From a virus: a stretch of 41,904 bases of DNA. Made by a program: the position numbers and the translations under genes. Under the pieces are notes generated by a model. The model had not been told where the DNA came from and ran no database searches. It was given only the letters and a program-made list of their open reading frames with translations. The stretch spans positions 1 to 41,904 of IMG/VR virus record IMGVR_UViG_3300027728_000026. One strand, 5' to 3'. This document shows, piece by piece, positions 24,058 through 41,904 of the stretch (the stretch's first letter is position 1; each line of letters opens with the position of its first letter).

Positions 24058-25302
24058 TTATAAATTACCAACTATTCTATCACACCACCCCTTTGATTTT
24101 GAATGAGGCCAAACAACCCAATATGATGGTTTCTCAACGGTTTGGAATTCTCTCCATACCTTACAATACCCCTCATCATTTAACATTCTATTAACTTCAT
24201 TCTCATCTGCGTCTTGTCTGAATAATGTTTCATCTTTTTTATTGTGGAAAGCCACCACCCAAAAATCATAATCCTTTTCTTGTACTTGACTAAAATGAAT
24301 ATCAATACAATGTTTGAATATACTTGAAAAACTTTTGACATAATCTTCATCATTATCATAACTTAGATTGGGGGGATATTTCTTATCCAAGGTATATTGT
24401 TGTACTCCCCTTATATTAAATTTAATTCCAGCGTATTTCTCAAAGTCTTCCAATGTCCTTTCAGTTCCAAAACCATAAATCCCAAAATCATTTGGATTAA
24501 ATACTTCACCATCCATACCAAATAACTTTCTGTTTCTTAGATGGGATGCTTCATTTTTCTTAAACCATACCTTATCATCATCCCATTGTTTAACTCTGTT
24601 TTTTCTTTGATATTCATGCCAAATTACAACTTTATGTGGATGAAACAAATCATATCCGTGAGTATACGCTCTTACACCAACTGAAATTTCCTCCCCGTGA
24701 AAATAATAATTGGGGTCGTGTTGAACTTCTTTACTGAATTGTCCTAATGTAAAACAGAAATGAGCAGAATAGAATCTGGCTTTTATTGGTTTTGTCATTT
24801 CTCTCCATCCTGGAATTACTTCAGGTAAAAAGAAAACAGCACCTTCAGGTATAAATCTATCAAATGTCATTCTCCAAGGTTCAGTAACCCTACCTTGTGG
24901 GTCATTGTCTGGGTCAAATGATGAAACATATCCTGTTAGTAATGGTTTGGGATATCCTTTAGATTGTAAGTCCTTAATCATATTAATTAAGGTTTCATCC
25001 CAATCTTGTTCAAATCTCATATGAGAATCTAGTTGGAGTGTATATTCTTCATTGTTATATAATTGTTGTATTTTATTTCTAGCCCAACAAGCCCCCATAC
25101 TTTCATCACATAGAACATTAATTATTCTAAATCGTTTATCACTTTCAAACTCCTTTATATTAAATTCATCACTCGGATGATATTGGTTACAAATACCAAA
25201 AATTAAATTATTTGGGTATTTTGAATTATCTATACAATCTTTAATTGTTATACTGAGTTGGGGGTCTCGGTAACTAGCAATCTGTATGAAAATTTTATCC
25301 AT
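24058..25302 (-). CDS. GT60-type (GlcNAc) glycosyltransferase
   Basis: A 414-residue protein with the layout of the GlcNAc-transferase family that includes Skp1-hydroxyproline GlcNAc transferases: IFIQIASYRDPQLSITIKDC, then CDESMGACWARNKIQQLY, LQLDSHMRFEQDWDE (the DSH acidic site), FSKEVQHDPNYYFHGEEISV and HPHKVVIWHEYQRK. The family adds GlcNAc to protein hydroxyl groups in eukaryotes. Here a bacterial or phage acceptor is likely. It is first in a three-gene glycosyltransferase operon lying among fibre genes with Pro-Thr linkers. Confidence 0.82.
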   Translation of the reverse strand: MDKIFIQIASYRDPQLSITIKDCIDNSKYPNNLIFGICNQYHPSDEFNIKEFESDKRFRIINVLCDESMGACWARNKIQQLYNNEEYTLQLDSHMRFEQDWDETLINMIKDLQSKGYPKPLLTGYVSSFDPDNDPQGRVTEPWRMTFDRFIPEGAVFFLPEVIPGWREMTKPIKARFYSAHFCFTLGQFSKEVQHDPNYYFHGEEISVGVRAYTHGYDLFHPHKVVIWHEYQRKNRVKQWDDDKVWFKKNEASHLRNRKLFGMDGEVFNPNDFGIYGFGTERTLEDFEKYAGIKFNIRGVQQYTLDKKYPPNLSYDNDEDYVKSFSSIFKHCIDIHFSQVQEKDYDFWVVAFHNKKDETLFRQDADENEVNRMLNDEGYCKVWREFQTVEKPSYWVVWPHSKSKGWCDRIVGNL

Positions 25303-25346: not shown

Positions 25347-26139
25347 TCAAGTAATTATTTTACTACCTTTACTGATATTATCAAAAGGCCACAAAGGTTG
25401 TAAATTAGAATGGTGACAAAGTTTAATTAACTCTTGTTCGTCTTTAGCTGATGATAGTGGAATAATGTGGTCAATATGCCAACCATGAACACCATAATTT
25501 TCCCAAGTCATACCATCAGTAAATTTGGATTCAATATATTCTTTTAGTTCAATGGCAGATAAGCCTACTATGTGTATAGTGTGTGTATTTTCAGACGACT
25601 TGTTATATCTTAAATAATTTTTAACTCTACATCTGTAGTTAGCCATCAATTTTAGATGTGGATTCTCCTTAAATCTATTTCTTTCATTTTCTCTAACTAA
25701 TTCCTTATTTGACTCTCTTTTCTCTCGTCTTTTTCTATTTATTTCTTCTCTATTTTTTTCTCTATATTCTTTACCTAATTCTAAAAGTCGTTCTCTATTT
25801 TTTTCTCTATATTCTTTTTTATTAAGATTAGTAATATCCTTATGTTTTTCATAAGTTTTCTTCTTAGATTCTTTTACTTTTTCCTTATTCTTTTCTTTCC
25901 ACAACTTATCATAATTTGGATTAATTTTTCTCCATTCTTTATTTTTCTCTAAAAGTAATTCTTTGTTTTTTAACCTATATTCTTTAATTCTATTATAATT
26001 CTTTTCTTTATCTTCTTTAGATTCTATTTTTCTACACTCTTTACATCTACTTTGTAAACCATCTTTATTGGTTATTATTTTTACCAAAATAAACTAAATC
26101 CTTTTCAATGTGACATTTACTACAAATCTTTTTTTCCAT
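25347..26139 (-). pseudogene. HNH homing endonuclease with a frameshift
   Basis: From the ATG at 26139 the first frame reads MEKKICSKCHIEKDLVYFGK and soon stops. The long frame (to 25347) resumes as NKDGLQSRCKECRK. Together these give the usual CxxC...CxxC zinc-finger start of phage HNH proteins. Removing one base near 26073-26078 joins them. The middle is a highly charged coiled-coil-like spacer. The C-terminus has the HNH site (GWHIDHIIPLSSA ... HSNLQPLWPFDN). A TTG start in the long frame would omit half of the finger. Either a broken gene or a sequencing indel. It sits between glycosyltransferase and fibre genes. Confidence 0.78.
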
Positions 26140-35940: not shown

Positions 35941-36329
35941 TGAAACTTTACAACATAACTAAATCTCTTATCTTAGAAATGGCTTCAATTGACAGTGTCA
36001 TTGATGCCATCAAAAAGAAAAATAGGATTATCATCTACTATGATGGTGATGAACCAGGAGGTCGTGGATTACGTGAAATTGAACCAGTTTGTTTTGGTTA
36101 TAGTAAAGCAGGTAATCCAGTGTTAAGAGCTTGGGACATTGAAGGTTCATCTCATAGAGATTATATTGGTAAAAAACCTCTCCCAAGTTGGAGATTGTTT
36201 AGATTAGATAAAGTATTATCTTTTAGACCATCTGGGGAGAAATTTGATACACCTAGACCAAACTATAATACAAGTGGTGATAAAGGTATGAGTAGAGTAA
36301 TAATAAACACAAAATTTGATACAATTTAA
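35940..36329 (+). CDS. Small WYL-domain-like protein with targeting-like N-terminus
   Basis: A 129-residue protein. After MKLYNITKSLILEMAS it has AIKKKNRIIIYYDGDEPGGR, REIEPVCFGYSKAGNPVLRA and SWRLFRLDKVLSFRPSGEKF, the strand order and I-x-Y-Y-D-G ... R-x-I-x-P ... R-L-x-L-D-K pattern of WYL domains. WYL domains bind ligands or nucleic acid and are usually attached to HTH regulators or defence proteins. Here the domain is alone. The N-terminal SLILE segment resembles other candidate targeting segments in the window. Confidence 0.6.
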   Translation: MKLYNITKSLILEMASIDSVIDAIKKKNRIIIYYDGDEPGGRGLREIEPVCFGYSKAGNPVLRAWDIEGSSHRDYIGKKPLPSWRLFRLDKVLSFRPSGEKFDTPRPNYNTSGDKGMSRVIINTKFDTI

Positions 36330-36332
36330 AAT

Positions 36333-36929
36333 ATGGCAAAAGAAGATGAATTAATGAGGAAACTTATGATTTCCAAAAAAATAATGGATGCCCACAATAC
36401 AACACCAAGAGGTCAAGTTAGTGGTAATTATCCAAGTACACCTGAATTACAAGAATTCCAAGTACCACAAGCAAATTATAATATACCTCAAGATATTATG
36501 ATGGAATCATCCGTACAACAACAACCACAAAAATTTGCCAATTCAAAAGACAGAATATTATCATCAAAACTTCCCAATGAAATTAAACGTCTTATGATTG
36601 AACATCCTATTCAACAACCAAGTAGTATGGGTGGAGGTTCAGTATTGAGTAATGAATTGGTTGAGAAAGCAGCAAGACTTATGAAGAATGATGTTGCCAA
36701 TAATGCGAATCCATACCAACCAAAAAAACAATCAATACAAGAATATTCAAGACCACAAGATACAAACTCAAGTTTAGACAGAGATACACTTAAAGAAGTT
36801 ATTAAGGAAGTTTTAAGTGAAAATGGTTTGTTGGTTGAAAGTACATCCAAATCAAATGATATGTTCCAATTTAGAGTAGGAAGTCATATCTTTGAAGGTA
36901 AAGTAACCAAAATTAAAAAAGTACGTTAA
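36333..36929 (+). CDS. Unknown Gln/Asn-rich protein, possible scaffold
   Basis: A 198-residue protein. The N-terminal half is Gln/Asn-rich and low-complexity. The C-terminus has TLKEVIKEVLSENGLLVEST, with an (L/I)xE|S site, and a basic strand end (FRVGSHIFEGKVTKIKKVR). The amphipathic, cleavable-looking segment fits prohead core proteins, but no homology is evident to me. Last gene of the operon, with a terminator 23 nt later. Confidence 0.5.
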   Translation: MAKEDELMRKLMISKKIMDAHNTTPRGQVSGNYPSTPELQEFQVPQANYNIPQDIMMESSVQQQPQKFANSKDRILSSKLPNEIKRLMIEHPIQQPSSMGGGSVLSNELVEKAARLMKNDVANNANPYQPKKQSIQEYSRPQDTNSSLDRDTLKEVIKEVLSENGLLVESTSKSNDMFQFRVGSHIFEGKVTKIKKVR

Positions 36930-36951
36930 TCTAACTATAATTTATCTTATT

Positions 36952-36998
36952 CCCCACATCCCCTGAAGAAATTCAAGTTGTGGGGTTTCGTTTTTTTA
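36952..36998 (+). terminator. Rho-independent terminator
   Basis: Stem CCCCACA (36952-36958) with TGTGGGG (36979-36985), with an inner TGAA/TTCA stem, followed by TTTCGTTTTTTT. Ends the five-gene operon. Confidence 0.88.
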
Positions 36999-37037
36999 AT
37001 TATTTTACTAACCCTTTAGACAATACTGATGTTGGGT

Positions 37038-37045
37038 ATATTTAT
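37038..37045 (+). promoter_or_regulatory. RTATTTAT promoter-like element (ATATTTAT)
   Basis: TATATTTATAATAAAAAC, 14 nt before the VSR-type endonuclease ATG and soon after a terminator. Confidence 0.55.
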
Positions 37046-37059
37046 AATAAAAACTAAAT

Positions 37060-37965
37060 ATGAAAGAAGAAATAATTAAATTGATTATTACCGAATATAA
37101 AAAAGGTTTGGGTTCTACAACCATATCAAAAAAATACAATATCCCAAAACAAAAAATATTAAAGGTAATTAAAGATAAAAATTTAACAAGAATTAAAGAT
37201 AGGTGTAAAAAATTGAATATAATACAAGAGGGCGAGTATTTTAAAACTGAAAAGATTTGTCCAATATGTAATACAAAAACATTTATAAAAACTAAAGAAA
37301 GTACCACAACTTGTAGAAATTATTATAATGCGATAAAAAGAGGTGGAAATTGTAAAAAATGTAGTTTGGAATTACAAAAAGGTGAGGGTAATCCATTTTT
37401 CGGAAAAAAACATTCGGATAAAACAAAATCAACAATATCAAAAAATAGAAAAGGAAAAGCTATTGGTGAAAACAATTCTATGTCAAAGTATGAACATAGA
37501 AAAAAATTATCCGATAGTTTAAAAAAAAGTTGGGAGAGTGGTAAGTTAGAGGAAACAAGGAAGAAGATGAGTGAAGTATTAAAAAGCACGAGAAGAAGTG
37601 GTAAAATTAAATCGGTGAACAAATCTAAAAAAGAAACTGAAATCTGTAATGATATAAAAAAAATGGGTTATAAAGTTCAGTCTTCTTACAAAGTTGACAC
37701 AAAAATATGTGATGTATTCATACCAAAACTAAATTTGATTATTGAATATTTTGGAGATTATTGGCATTGTAATCCTAACAAATATTCAGCCGAATATATT
37801 AATAAAAAAAAGAATCTTACAGCAAAAGAAATTTGGGAATATGATACCTCAAAACTTGAATTAATCAAAAGTTATGGTTATAATTTGGAAGTAATTTGGG
37901 AGAGTGAACTCAAATTAAATAATGATAAATTATTAAACATAATTAAAAAATATGATACAAAATGA
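37060..37965 (+). CDS. VSR-type homing endonuclease with NUMOD-like and zinc motifs
   Basis: A 301-residue protein. Residues 1-45 form a basic helix-turn-helix (GSTTISKKYNIPKQKIL). A zinc ribbon is made by CPICNTK (67-73) and CKKC (98-101). GEGNPFFGKKHSDKTKSTIS near 108 is NUMOD3-like. The C-terminal nuclease has D218 and E229 around VFIPKLNLIIEYFGDYWHCN (also D233, W235, H236), as in VSR-type PD-(D/E)XK homing enzymes. Intact, unlike the copy at 3175-3638. It overlaps the interrupted glycosyltransferase by 14 nt, a probable recent insertion point. Confidence 0.85.
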   Translation: MKEEIIKLIITEYKKGLGSTTISKKYNIPKQKILKVIKDKNLTRIKDRCKKLNIIQEGEYFKTEKICPICNTKTFIKTKESTTTCRNYYNAIKRGGNCKKCSLELQKGEGNPFFGKKHSDKTKSTISKNRKGKAIGENNSMSKYEHRKKLSDSLKKSWESGKLEETRKKMSEVLKSTRRSGKIKSVNKSKKETEICNDIKKMGYKVQSSYKVDTKICDVFIPKLNLIIEYFGDYWHCNPNKYSAEYINKKKNLTAKEIWEYDTSKLELIKSYGYNLEVIWESELKLNNDKLLNIIKKYDTK

Positions 37966-39208
37966 TAATCAACCTCGGTTGGATCACAGAGAGAGAATAA
38001 GAGTACTTGTTCTGCCCTCAGATACAACCGGGGTTGGCTGAGGTAAATTCCGAAGCGTAGACCCCCATGTAATGTTACAAAATATGTATCCAGATGATTT
38101 TCATGTGGACATAGATTACCAACCAAGGATTAATGATGTTAATTATTGGAAACAATATCAGATTGTTCATGTACATAGAAACATTGGACAATCATATGAA
38201 CAAACCCCAACCATAATCAATTTCTTAAAATCAATAGGCATTATTGTTGTTGTTGATTTGGATGACTATTGGTTACCAGGAAAGGAACACCCAATACACA
38301 CCTTGATTGTTCAAGACAAAATCCACGAAAAGATTATGGCGAACTTGAAGGTAGCCAGTTATGTTATTACAACAACAAACATCTTTGCCGATGAGATTAG
38401 AAAATTAAATAGGAATGTTGTTATATTACCCAATGCCATCAATCCTGACGAATTACAATTCAAACAACCAAACGAAGAATCGAATAGAGTTAGAGTTGGA
38501 TGGTTGGGTGGATCGTCACACTTTCACGACTTAAAATTACTACAAGGTTTTGTTGGAAAGAATAGTGGATTACAAGACAAACTCCAATATGTTTTATGTG
38601 GATTTGATATTAGAGGAACTGTAACTGAAATCAATCAACAAACTGGGGAAAGGAAACAAAGAAACATTAAACCTGAAGAAACTGTATGGTCTCGTTATGA
38701 GGAAATCTTTACTAACAATTATAGTATTATCCCCCCTGACTACCATAAGTTCTTAATGACCTTTAAAGAAGAAGAATATCCTAACGAAAAAGATTTTGGT
38801 TATAGAAGGGTGTGGACAAAACATATTAACACATACGCTACAAATTATTCAAAGTTTGATATATCTTTGGCTCCAATCAAAAACCACATCTTTAATAGGG
38901 TTAAATCACAATTAAAAGTTATTGAAGCTGGATTTTATAAAAAAGCAATAATAGCATCTGAAGTTGGTCCCTATACAATTGACTTGAAACATTCAATGGA
39001 ATTTGGTAAGTTTGTTGATGGAAATGCCTTGTTGGTTAAAGAAGAAAGAAATCATAGTGATTGGGCTAAACACATTAAAACTTTAGCATACAATCCAAAT
39101 ATGGTTATTGATTTGGGTGAAAGATTATATGAGTCAGTTAAGGACAAATATGATTTGAGAAACGTAACTAGAGATAGGGCATCATGGTATAAATCACTAA
39201 TAAAATAA
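37952..39208 (+). CDS. GT-B glycosyltransferase interrupted by an in-frame TGA
   Basis: An upstream frame from the ATG at 37952 (MIQNDNQPRLDHRERIRVLV) continues in phase through a TGA at 38039-38041 into the frame usually called from 38072. On both sides the text fits one glycosyltransferase start: LVLPSDTTGVG, stop, GKFRSVDPHVMLQNMYPDDF. The rest (378 residues from 38072) shows a GT4-like layout with WLGGSSHFHDL, QYVLCGFD, DISLAPIKNH and KVIEAGFYKKAIIASEVGP. A GC-rich hairpin (38016-38043) encloses the stop. The 14-nt overlap with the endonuclease gene suggests an insertion event. Either a nonsense mutation, readthrough, or a six-nt bypass from one Gly codon to the next. Confidence 0.72.
38016..38043 (+). 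promoter_or_regulatory. GC-rich hairpin at the in-frame TGA
   Basis: CCTCAG (38016-38021) pairs with CTGAGG (38038-38043), with an inner CAACC/GGTTG stem. The TGA lies in the 3' arm, directly between GGC and GGT glycine codons. Confidence 0.5.
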
Positions 39209-39214
39209 TAATAT

Positions 39215-39928
39215 ATGTTAATCAAACAACCCCTCACCAAGATTTTATTTATGGATATTGAAACCGTTGGATGTTGTCCAAACTATGATGTTTGTTCAAA
39301 TTTAAATCCAACGGTATCAGAACAATTTGACAAATACTTTGATTGGTTTTTAAAAAGATTTCCTGAAGACGAATTAGTTGGGGAGGATATTAAGAATTAT
39401 GTTTTTACCAAAAGAACGGCATTAGTGCCGGAGTTTGCAAAGATTGTTTGTGTTAGTTTTGCCTTTGTCTTAGATGATGGTTCAGTTAGAAAACAAACCT
39501 TCTCTGACGAGGACGAATTCAAATTGTTAAAGAATGTCCAAGGATTATTAAATAAGGTTGGGAAATTGGATTTTTGGTTATGTGGTCATAACTTAAAGAA
39601 CTTTGATATTCCAATGTTAGCAAAACGTATGATTGTTAATGGTTTGATTCCACCAACAATGTTACCAACCTATGATACCAAACCTTGGGACATTAAAGCA
39701 ATTGACACCAAAGAGATTTGGCAATATGGCGCATATACCTCCATTGGATCGTTGGATTTGTTATGTTCAAGCTTGGGTATTCAGACACCAAAAGATGGTG
39801 AGGTGGTTGGAGAAAAAGTTCATAACGAGTATTGGGAAAAACAAAACTTGAAAGGTATTTCCGAATATTGTGAAAAAGATGTAAATGTATTAATAGAAAT
39901 AATTAAAAAATTAAAAGAATTACAATGA
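39215..39928 (+). CDS. DnaQ-like 3'-5' exonuclease
   Basis: A 237-residue protein. Motif I is LFMDIETVG (DxE), motif II is CGHNLKNFDIPML (N-x-x-F-D), and the late Y-C-E-K-D-V (EYCEKDVNVLI) is motif III. The sequence resembles the stand-alone PolB-exonuclease-like family. It probably trims or degrades DNA 3' ends in replication or repair. Its stop overlaps the dUTPase ATG (ATGA), so the two nucleotide-metabolism genes are co-translated. Confidence 0.82.
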   Translation: MLIKQPLTKILFMDIETVGCCPNYDVCSNLNPTVSEQFDKYFDWFLKRFPEDELVGEDIKNYVFTKRTALVPEFAKIVCVSFAFVLDDGSVRKQTFSDEDEFKLLKNVQGLLNKVGKLDFWLCGHNLKNFDIPMLAKRMIVNGLIPPTMLPTYDTKPWDIKAIDTKEIWQYGAYTSIGSLDLLCSSLGIQTPKDGEVVGEKVHNEYWEKQNLKGISEYCEKDVNVLIEIIKKLKELQ

Positions 39929-40527
39929 GTTTAGACAATTTAGAAAACATTAGCGAATACGCCATTAAGATACAACAATTACTTGAAGCCAATGAAAATG
40001 GGGAAGAAATTGATTATAACACATTATTTGATGAGTTTGGATTGAATCTTGAAGAACTTGAACATGATATGATGAATTATTCGCCAAAATTGGATTTGGG
40101 TTATGTTAAATTAAACGATGATGCGGTTGAACCAAAATATAATTATGATGGTGATTCTGGATTTGATTTATATTCAACTGAGGATGTTACAATACCCCCA
40201 TTTGGTAGAGTATTAATTCCAACTGGTTTATCTTTTGACATTAAAGATGGATATGAAATTCAAGTTAGGTCAAAGAGTGGATTGGCTCTAAACCAAGGAT
40301 TGATGGTATTAAATTCTCCCGGAACAGTAGACAATTCTTTTGCAGGAGAGGTTAAGGTAATACTATTCAATGTTAATAACCACCAAGTAAAAATTAATAA
40401 GGGTATGAAGATTGCTCAAGCCGTATTAACATCTGTTGTTAATGGAAAGTGGGTTCAATTGAATAAGCTTAATGGAATAAACGATAAGGATAGAGGAGAT
40501 AAAGGATTTGGTTCAACTGGAGTATGA
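39925..40527 (+). CDS. dut: dUTPase with N-terminal extension
   Basis: A 200-residue protein. Residues about 70-200 hold the trimeric dUTPase motifs: GDSGFDLYS (1), RSKSGLALNQG (2), LNSPGTVDNSFAGEV (3), the beta-rich KGMKIAQAVL (4), and the C-terminal GDKGFGSTGV (5). Hydrolyses dUTP to dUMP, keeping uracil out of phage DNA. The first 65 residues are an acidic helical addition not seen in ordinary dUTPases, perhaps for protein contact. The stop overlaps the next start (ATGA). Confidence 0.93.
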   Translation: MSLDNLENISEYAIKIQQLLEANENGEEIDYNTLFDEFGLNLEELEHDMMNYSPKLDLGYVKLNDDAVEPKYNYDGDSGFDLYSTEDVTIPPFGRVLIPTGLSFDIKDGYEIQVRSKSGLALNQGLMVLNSPGTVDNSFAGEVKVILFNVNNHQVKINKGMKIAQAVLTSVVNGKWVQLNKLNGINDKDRGDKGFGSTGV

Positions 40528-40706
40528 TTACAATAATATATTCAACACATAAAGACAAAGACTATAACGAAAAATTTAAGACCCATCTGATTAATTCGGT
40601 GGGTCTTAATGACGTTCAGATATTAGAATATCAAAACAACAACCAATACTCATTAGCTCAAGTTTATAATAGTGGAATTTTTAAAATGTATTATTTATTA
40701 ATCTAA
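40524..40706 (+). pseudogene. Truncated glycosyltransferase copy
   Basis: A 60-residue ORF, start overlapping the dUTPase stop. It matches the beginning of the glycosyltransferase at 40912: MITIIYSTHKDK against MITIGYSSRNHN, NSVGLNDVQILEY against NSVGLKNVEIIEI, LAQVYNSGI against LSECYNEIL. Homology ends where the antisense HTH fragment begins (about 40681), so the gene was cut off by that insertion. The two copies have diverged and are paralogues, not a recent repeat. Confidence 0.65.
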
Positions 40707-40911: not shown

Positions 40912-41904
40912 ATGATAACAATAGGATATTCTAGTCGAAATCATAATCAAAAACATTATGAACACTTGTCAAATAGTGTAGGTCTTAAAAATGTTGAGAT
41001 TATTGAAATAATAAATAACGGTAATCTATCATTATCAGAATGCTATAATGAAATATTAAAAAAATCAAAATTTAATATCAATGTTTATGTCCATGATGAT
41101 ATTAAACTTGAGAAAAATTGGGGTGTAAAACTATTGGAGGATTTCAATAATAATTCCGACTTTGGTATTATCGGTAAAGCTGGTTCTTGTTATTTTCCAA
41201 AGTCTGGAATATATTGGGAACGAATGCAACAAACAATGGTTGGTCAAGTTTGGCATCACCCTATTGGACATAAAAAATGGATTAACAATTATTGCAGTAA
41301 ATTACCATTTATAATACCCGTTGTAACAATTGATGGTTTATTTATATCATTTGATAAGACAAAAATTAAACATCAGTTTGATGAAACAATTGGTAAATTC
41401 CATTTTTACGATCACGGATTTTCTGTTCCAAATTATTTGGATGGGGTTAAAATTGGTGTGACATCTTCCTTTGAAATTACTCATGAATCTATTGGACAAC
41501 CAAATCAAGAATTTTTTGAAAGCAAAGATAAGTTTTTGGAAAAATATGGGGATAAATTTCCATTGGATTTAAGACCAAAAGATGTTTATGTTCCAAACTT
41601 AAAAATAAAAGAAAATAAAAATAAGGTTGCGGTAATCATTTCGACCAAAAGTAAATTGGATTTATTATTCCAATGTATTGAATCTTTTTATGAACATTGT
41701 AATCCAAAACAATATGATATATTTATTGCCGACACCGGTTCAGATGAAGAAGAATTAAAATCAATTAAAGAATTGGTAAATAAGGTTGATAATATCAAAC
41801 TAATAAAATATCAATATTATAACTTTGCTAAGATTAACAATCATATTGTTAAAAATTATATTGGTAGAGAATATACATATGTTTTATTCTGTAACAACGA
41901 TATT
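40912..41904 (+). CDS. GT2-type glycosyltransferase (runs off window)
   Basis: An open frame of 331 codons from the ATG at 40912 to the window end. N-terminal domain: MITIGYSSRNHNQKHYEHL, INVYVHDDIKLEKNWGVKLL with an acidic VHDD site, and PVVTIDGLFISFDKTKI, like glycosyltransferases that act on a short acceptor. A second GT2-like domain begins near residue 240 (VAVIISTKSKLDLLFQCIES, YDIFIADTGSDEEELKSIKE). Two-domain, as with the gene at 21466. Start chosen to match the paralogous fragment at 40524. Product and acceptor unknown. Confidence 0.8.
   Translation, partial: MITIGYSSRNHNQKHYEHLSNSVGLKNVEIIEIINNGNLSLSECYNEILKKSKFNINVYVHDDIKLEKNWGVKLLEDFNNNSDFGIIGKAGSCYFPKSGIYWERMQQTMVGQVWHHPIGHKKWINNYCSKLPFIIPVVTIDGLFISFDKTKIKHQFDETIGKFHFYDHGFSVPNYLDGVKIGVTSSFEITHESIGQPNQEFFESKDKFLEKYGDKFPLDLRPKDVYVPNLKIKENKNKVAVIISTKSKLDLLFQCIESFYEHCNPKQYDIFIADTGSDEEELKSIKELVNKVDNIKLIKYQYYNFAKINNHIVKNYIGREYTYVLFCNNDI

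Follow-up and report, generated by a model that had tools for sequence, protein, structure and literature searches.

A homing-endonuclease cassette in a phage glycosyltransferase gene, probably made harmless by a short hairpin-assisted translational bypass

A phage glycosyltransferase gene is cut into two open reading frames (ORFs) by an in-frame stop codon directly downstream of a homing-endonuclease gene. Very probably, although no expression data exist, this is a homing-endonuclease cassette in the glycosyltransferase gene that is rendered harmless by a short, hairpin-assisted bypass during translation. The cassette would consist of the endonuclease, a replacement 5' end of the glycosyltransferase gene and a recoding signal, inserted at the conserved GV(G/S)-KFRS codons, and the hop would fuse the two ORFs into one uninterrupted enzyme. 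On a wider scale we consider it likely that widespread mobile elements of phages owe their harmlessness to short hairpin-driven hopping rather than to splicing, with the hairpin as motor, the stop as pause and the next matching codon setting the distance, and that stop-hops of 5-13 nt occur naturally in dozens of lineages.

The interrupted gene and its relatives

The window, i.e. the whole stretch of DNA that was analysed (41,904 nt), contains the following features at and around the junction:

36952-36996, plus strand: terminator-like hairpin with a T run, closing the upstream gene 36333-36929 (from sequence and synteny)
37013-37039, plus strand: probable relic of the original glycosyltransferase 5' end, reading PLDNTDVGY where the intact gene has PSDKTGVGK; forms the left flank of the cassette
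37060-37965, plus strand: intact homing endonuclease of 301 aa with a NUMOD3 motif and a Vsr/REase-like domain
37952-38041, plus strand: first ORF of the glycosyltransferase, a cassette-borne N-terminal extension plus IRVLVLPSDTTGVG, with TGA at its end
37969-38037, plus strand: stem-loop in the coding RNA, outer helix 37970-37981 / 38025-38036, its base abutting the take-off codon
38036-38038, plus strand: take-off codon GGC (Gly); GGY or AGY in all 36 interrupted genes, never GGA, GGG or TCN
38039-38041, plus strand: stop codon TGA, directly after take-off, forming the entire gap in the window
38042-38044, plus strand: landing codon GGT (Gly), 6 nt 3' of take-off, aligning to the uninterrupted GVGKFRS
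38045-39208, plus strand: remainder of the enzyme, a GT-B glycosyltransferase, read from the landing frame as KFRSVDPH... and supported by homologues, a PHROG match and the GT-B fold

The ATG at 37952 opens the glycosyltransferase frame within the last codons of the endonuclease, and the frame overlaps the endonuclease stop (37963-37965). Translation up to the TGA gives MIQNDNQPRLDHRERIRVLVLPSDTTGVG, and after landing it gives GKFRSVDPHVMLQ..., running to 39208. At the junction the frame reads ...ACC GGG GTT GGC TGA GGT AAA TTC..., which confirms the position and frame of the TGA reported in a first-pass annotation of this DNA. The same TGA is found at the same junction in L016, L047 and L001; the latter, a second IMG/VR contig, shares 99.97% identity over 6,863 nt and shows no difference at all upstream of the junction.

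The glycosyltransferase matches the PHROG family of that name (5e-46) and 51 other viral contigs at 62-85% identity. A fold search assigned it to GT-B, and a search of its profile against PDB sequences gave no match. An uninterrupted homologue was modelled (mean pLDDT 81.6); its residues 5-10 form the first strand, followed by a Gly loop and by a helix from residue 16. Since the model places strand and Gly loop there, the hop would join the first strand to the rest of the GT-B domain, and loss of the first-strand part is expected, by inference from the model, to break the enzyme. Among the cultured phages searched there was no close relative of the glycosyltransferase, the endonuclease or the DNA polymerase. 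No host was assigned, because the bacterial genomes scanned contained just two distant glycosyltransferases, both uninterrupted. No tRNA gene was found in the window.

A scan of viral contigs for the glycosyltransferase yielded 52 loci, most of which encode a continuous MS.KIKVLVLPSD.TGVGKFRS and twelve of which have a stop after GVG. Further loci were added by scans with the endonuclease and with alignments, resulting in 36 distinct interrupted junctions beside 124 uninterrupted ones, by which a sequencing error is rejected; the scan that yielded the 36 required neither a stop nor a particular frame. The gap, the adjacent stop and the matched codons can be read directly from these junctions. 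The gap is short (2-10 nt) in 35 of the 36, and in all 35 a stop (TGA, TAA or TAG) stands immediately 3' of the last codon; where the gap is just TA or TG, the first base of the landing codon completes the stop (TA+GGT, TG+AGC). Take-off and landing specify the same residue, Gly-Gly or Ser-Ser, in 34 of these short-gap junctions.

In the table of 36 elements, from which L223 was left out and in which a few rows are near copies, the residues match in 35 (29 Gly-Gly and 6 Ser-Ser, the latter with AGY codons). The sole exception (L155:3944-3952) has an AGT (Ser) take-off and a GGC (Gly) landing. The tabulated stops comprise 20 TGA, 14 TAA and 2 TAG, and the hops measure 5 nt (four elements), 6 nt (21), 7 nt (two), 8 nt (three), 9 nt (one), 11 nt (one), 12 nt (two) and 13 nt (two), thus spanning all three frames. 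A DNA pattern scan for the junction returned matches solely in glycosyltransferase contexts, with five or six additional junctions of the 6-nt type. A separate observation concerns L223:1300-1360, a relative of the glycosyltransferase with a 41-nt gap (GGT GCT TAA ... GGT) and a CCCCCAC/GTGGGGG hairpin of its own; this gap lies behind a decayed endonuclease and could represent either a bypass of T4-like length or a copy in decay.

The first-pass annotation had proposed that tRNA-Gly moves from GGC to GGT across TGAGGT. The sequences of the relatives support such a Gly-to-Gly hop, although bypassing itself is without experimental demonstration: uninterrupted homologues read continuously through GVGKFRS and lack TGAGGT, and none was seen with GVGWGKFRS, which would have spoken for an ordinary Trp codon at this place. 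Readthrough of the stop, be it by a suppressor, by selenocysteine or by reading TGA as Trp, would insert a residue and continue in frame to give GVGXGKFRS, and the stop is indeed in frame with the rest of the gene in the window and in 20 other elements with a 6-nt hop. However, the rest is out of frame in 12 of the 36 elements (gaps of 5, 7, 8, 11 and 13 nt), all three stop codons occur at the junctions, and no uninterrupted homologue was seen with a residue at the position of the stop. TGA also terminates other genes of the window (7 of the 35 ORFs of at least 100 codons), and therefore is a working stop in this phage. As regards selenocysteine, a bacterial SECIS is located 3' of the stop, unlike the hairpin described here, which lies 5' of it. 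Because of the gaps in other frames, the other stops and the Ser-Ser pairs, readthrough fails as a mechanism for the family, and we regard it as very unlikely.

Some frame change can rejoin any single gap, and one might thus combine ordinary -1 or +1 frameshifting in the out-of-frame elements with readthrough in the others. A single homologous element would then require three mechanisms, extra residues would appear in a motif whose spacing is strict, and both the matched codons and the invariant adjacent stop would be left unexplained; we find this combination barely credible.

A short bypass between matched codons, the reading that we prefer, is accompanied by a pronounced codon choice. At the take-off position the uninterrupted genes use GGT (46), GGA (28), GGG (16), GGC (1), TCN (26) and AGY (7), and the interrupted genes solely GGT (17), GGC (12), AGC (5) and AGT (2). 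All Gly take-off codons are hence GGY, compared to 47 of 91 at the same place in uninterrupted genes (Fisher p ~3e-7 for Gly, with 28 of 29 used, and 2e-4 for Ser). These p values are rough because the lineages are related; neither they nor the counts given throughout are independent. The tRNAs that decode GGY and AGY carry G at the wobble position. Six pairs require that a GGY-reading tRNA accepts GGA, and the tRNA set of the host is unknown. The match between the codons could partly be a by-product of a cassette that carries a copy of the same site.

The probable endonuclease cassette

The endonuclease matches a PHROG homing endonuclease (3e-11) and, in Pfam, NUMOD3 (4e-6); a match to MTES_1575 (1.7e-4) is below its cutoff. 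To the left of it, a relic of a glycosyltransferase 5' end (PSD/PFD/PLD..TG) is present in 19 of the 33 interrupted loci scanned, and some of the others have frame-broken versions. The relic is absent from all 21 endonuclease-less loci, and is also found in four uninterrupted loci that have an endonuclease. In L070, L074, L163 and L173 it amounts to a full glycosyltransferase start (M..KVLVVPSDRTGV). The short relic may now be a promoter; this is an inference, which would explain its conservation. Synteny points to the same site: in endonuclease-less phages the upstream gene stands directly before the glycosyltransferase, and interrupted loci carry the endonuclease between these two genes.

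On the glycosyltransferase tree the interrupted state needs 19 changes, no fewer than with shuffled labels, whereas on the endonuclease tree it needs only 3, a number that none of 500 shuffles was low enough to reach. The interruption thus travels with the endonuclease, and this co-inheritance is observed in the sequences themselves. Relics, synteny and trees together support, from sequence comparison only, an insertion of the endonuclease into the glycosyltransferase gene; cleavage of the intact site by the enzyme is inferred. The relics and the tree comparison likewise back the resemblance to T4 gene 60 beside its mobile endonuclease, which the first-pass annotation had noticed.

Endonuclease and interruption are nevertheless separable. 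A sister clade of the endonuclease stands directly before uninterrupted glycosyltransferase genes (L003, L026, L069, L162, L164, L166, L172, L176 and L181), which have neither the stop nor the hairpin extension, and L043 keeps the interruption though its endonuclease has decayed or been lost. Upstream of the uninterrupted glycosyltransferases of L013, L014, L037 and L038 we observed apparent remnants of an endonuclease C-terminus; here the cassette may have been lost and the gene restored.

Removal of the interruption at the RNA level by a group I or group II intron was rejected: an Rfam search of 36300-39300 found no intron up to E = 1 and nothing else of relevance, and conserved coding sequence continues up to the stop. 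One may also ask whether the cassette simply broke the gene, so that the copies are dying pseudogenes with a non-functional scar. Such cassettes are selfish, the gap varies in length as a repair scar might, and the endonuclease is truncated or lost in some loci (L043, L223). This is at odds with the length and intactness of the downstream frames, with the low pN/pS in the lineages compared, and with the retention of hairpin, stop and codon match among endonucleases that are only ~45-75% identical to that of the window; L043, moreover, retains the element after the loss of its endonuclease. We accordingly give this possibility next to no weight.

Other traces of mobile elements were encountered. 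The glycosyltransferase genes of L070, L074, L154, L163 and L173 are ~770 codons long; those of L070 and L074 have an apparent intein between GWLGGS and SHL, and the other three were judged by length only. The intein-like insert of L070 and L074 suggests that mobile elements of two kinds can reside in this gene. Elsewhere in the window, a short ORF (40524-40706) shares 48% identity with the first 50 residues of a family 2 glycosyltransferase starting at 40912; here, too, a gene has a truncated duplicate of its 5' end, perhaps from another lost cassette. On the minus strand, an apparent endonuclease ORF (25347-26087), HNH-like by eye, directly precedes an intact glycosyltransferase gene (24058-25302).

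The hairpin, the inferred joined product and the proposed hop

The first ORF of interrupted genes has 26-30 codons, of which the additional N-terminal ones make up the 5' arm of the hairpin; the 3' arm codes for TGVG, and its end falls anywhere from ~2 bases ahead of the take-off codon to the second base of that codon. The hairpin of the window (MFE -33.9, z -5.8) had been thought to enclose the stop, which proved wrong: the helix extends only as far as the first base of the take-off codon and leaves the stop outside, immediately on its 3' side. Interrupted elements have an MFE of -25 to -35 kcal/mol and a mean z of -4.5, with z at or below -2.1 in all 33 tested and -2.2 for the weakest, compared to a mean z of 0.05 for the same stretch in 34 uninterrupted homologues.

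Pairing is found in 94% of the lower-helix cells, and drops to 82.5 ± 1.5% after arms are swapped between lineages (maximum 88% in 2000 swaps); sliding the arms reduces pairing from 92% to 34-57%. In an in-register subset two pairs have changes on both sides, and paired changes have been retained even at the wobble position of a Gly codon. Applied to the unadjusted MAFFT alignment of 30 elements, RNAalifold gave no consensus helix, as the groups differ by one column in the register of the 5' arm. The evidence for covariation consists of the re-registered arms, with the swap and slide controls, and the one in-register subset. As judged from these comparisons, the predicted hairpin covaries across lineages and is missing from uninterrupted genes.

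Selection is seen on both sides of the junction: across relatives, pN/pS amounts to 0.28 in the 12 codons that precede the stop, 0.30 in the 13 that follow landing and 0.33 in the body of the gene. From this we infer, in the absence of expression data, that both ORFs are translated as one protein. Alternatively, two products might be made, a 29-aa leader peptide and an enzyme re-initiated downstream, e.g. at the ATG at 38072. Short ORFs commonly precede genes, and a possible start (ATG, GTG or TTG) lies 5-11 codons past landing in 19 of 33 elements. Yet the codons between landing and start are as constrained as noted above, with R, S, P and H invariant or nearly so, and the equally constrained leader holds the first strand and the Gly loop of the GT-B domain. 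Several lineages, furthermore, are without an ATG for 50-120 codons: L027, L061, L138 and L147 have none in the 120 codons past landing, over which L061 and L138 also lack GTG and TTG. We hold re-initiation to be very improbable.

For a single joined product, the following course of events would account for the observations; the hop itself, its efficiency and the role of the hairpin as a motor are inferred. A stop in the A site would supply a pause while peptidyl-tRNA-Gly (tRNA-Ser in some relatives) sits on the take-off codon. At this point the upper part of the hairpin would already be behind the ribosome, while some twelve nucleotides of the 3' arm would not yet have left it. As inferred from known ribosome footprints, the lower helix could close only if the ribosome advanced by about the 5-13 nt that the hops span; by closing, the hairpin would pull the mRNA and the ribosome would go forward. 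The tRNA would release and re-pair with a matching codon 5-13 nt further on (6 nt in the window), with re-pairing setting the place of landing.

Comparison with known bypassing systems

T4 gene 60 has been almost the sole well-studied bypass in bacteria and phages since 1988. There, an endonuclease splits a topoisomerase gene, and a 5' stem-loop acts as motor (PMC5009743): with a stop codon occupying the A site, the ribosome comes to rest at GGA, and the mRNA is pulled by the stem-loop that folds behind it (PMC5009743, PMC11194080). The elements described here share with T4 gene 60/mobA the matched Gly take-off and landing, the stop directly after take-off, the 5' stem-loop, the existence of uninterrupted homologues and an upstream homing endonuclease that split the host gene (PMC5009743, PMC3014915). 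In contrast to T4 gene 60, with its gap of ~50 nt, their gaps are 2-10 nt and their hops 5-13 nt (L223 being one possible 44-nt case). A take-off stem-loop enclosing take-off codon and gap is absent, the hairpin ending at and abutting the take-off codon instead. They also differ in having Ser-Ser versions, in residing in a glycosyltransferase rather than a topoisomerase gene, in occurring in dozens of lineages and in carrying a replacement 5' end within the cassette; T4 gene 60 has a nascent-peptide signal, KKYK. Because the take-off stem-loop and the 50-nt gap are missing, we regard the element as a new variant of programmed bypassing and not as a homologue of gene 60.

Closer in distance are the synthetic stop-hops of Weiss et al. 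1987, in which, as far as they are summarised in PMC5009743, peptidyl-tRNA likewise crosses a stop to a match 5-6 nt on; those are reporter constructs, whereas the glycosyltransferase elements are natural. According to the same review, published in 2016, stop-hops were known in synthetic constructs and no natural in-frame stop-hop was known, although short matched-codon counterparts had long been presumed to exist (PMC5009743). Our literature search found no earlier natural short stop-hop, with preprints and many subscription papers outside its coverage. The byps of Magnusiomyces capitatus mitochondria are likewise short inserts that are skipped in translation and thought to be mobile (PMC5009743), but unlike the present elements they number 81 in a single mitochondrial genome, where decoding is relaxed, and are apparently independent of context. 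The terminase of Streptomyces phage Hau3 is also a phage gene with a proposed short bypass (PMC5009743); that bypass, however, is proposed to take place at a UUA codon with an SD-like signal.

Annotation programs would label genes of this kind as truncated or broken. If the interpretation is correct, they constitute, after T4 gene 60, the second case of a homing endonuclease rendered harmless by translational bypass, and the natural variation among ~40 related elements, in the length of the gap, the stop, the pair of codons and the hairpin, allows the role of each part to be tested directly.
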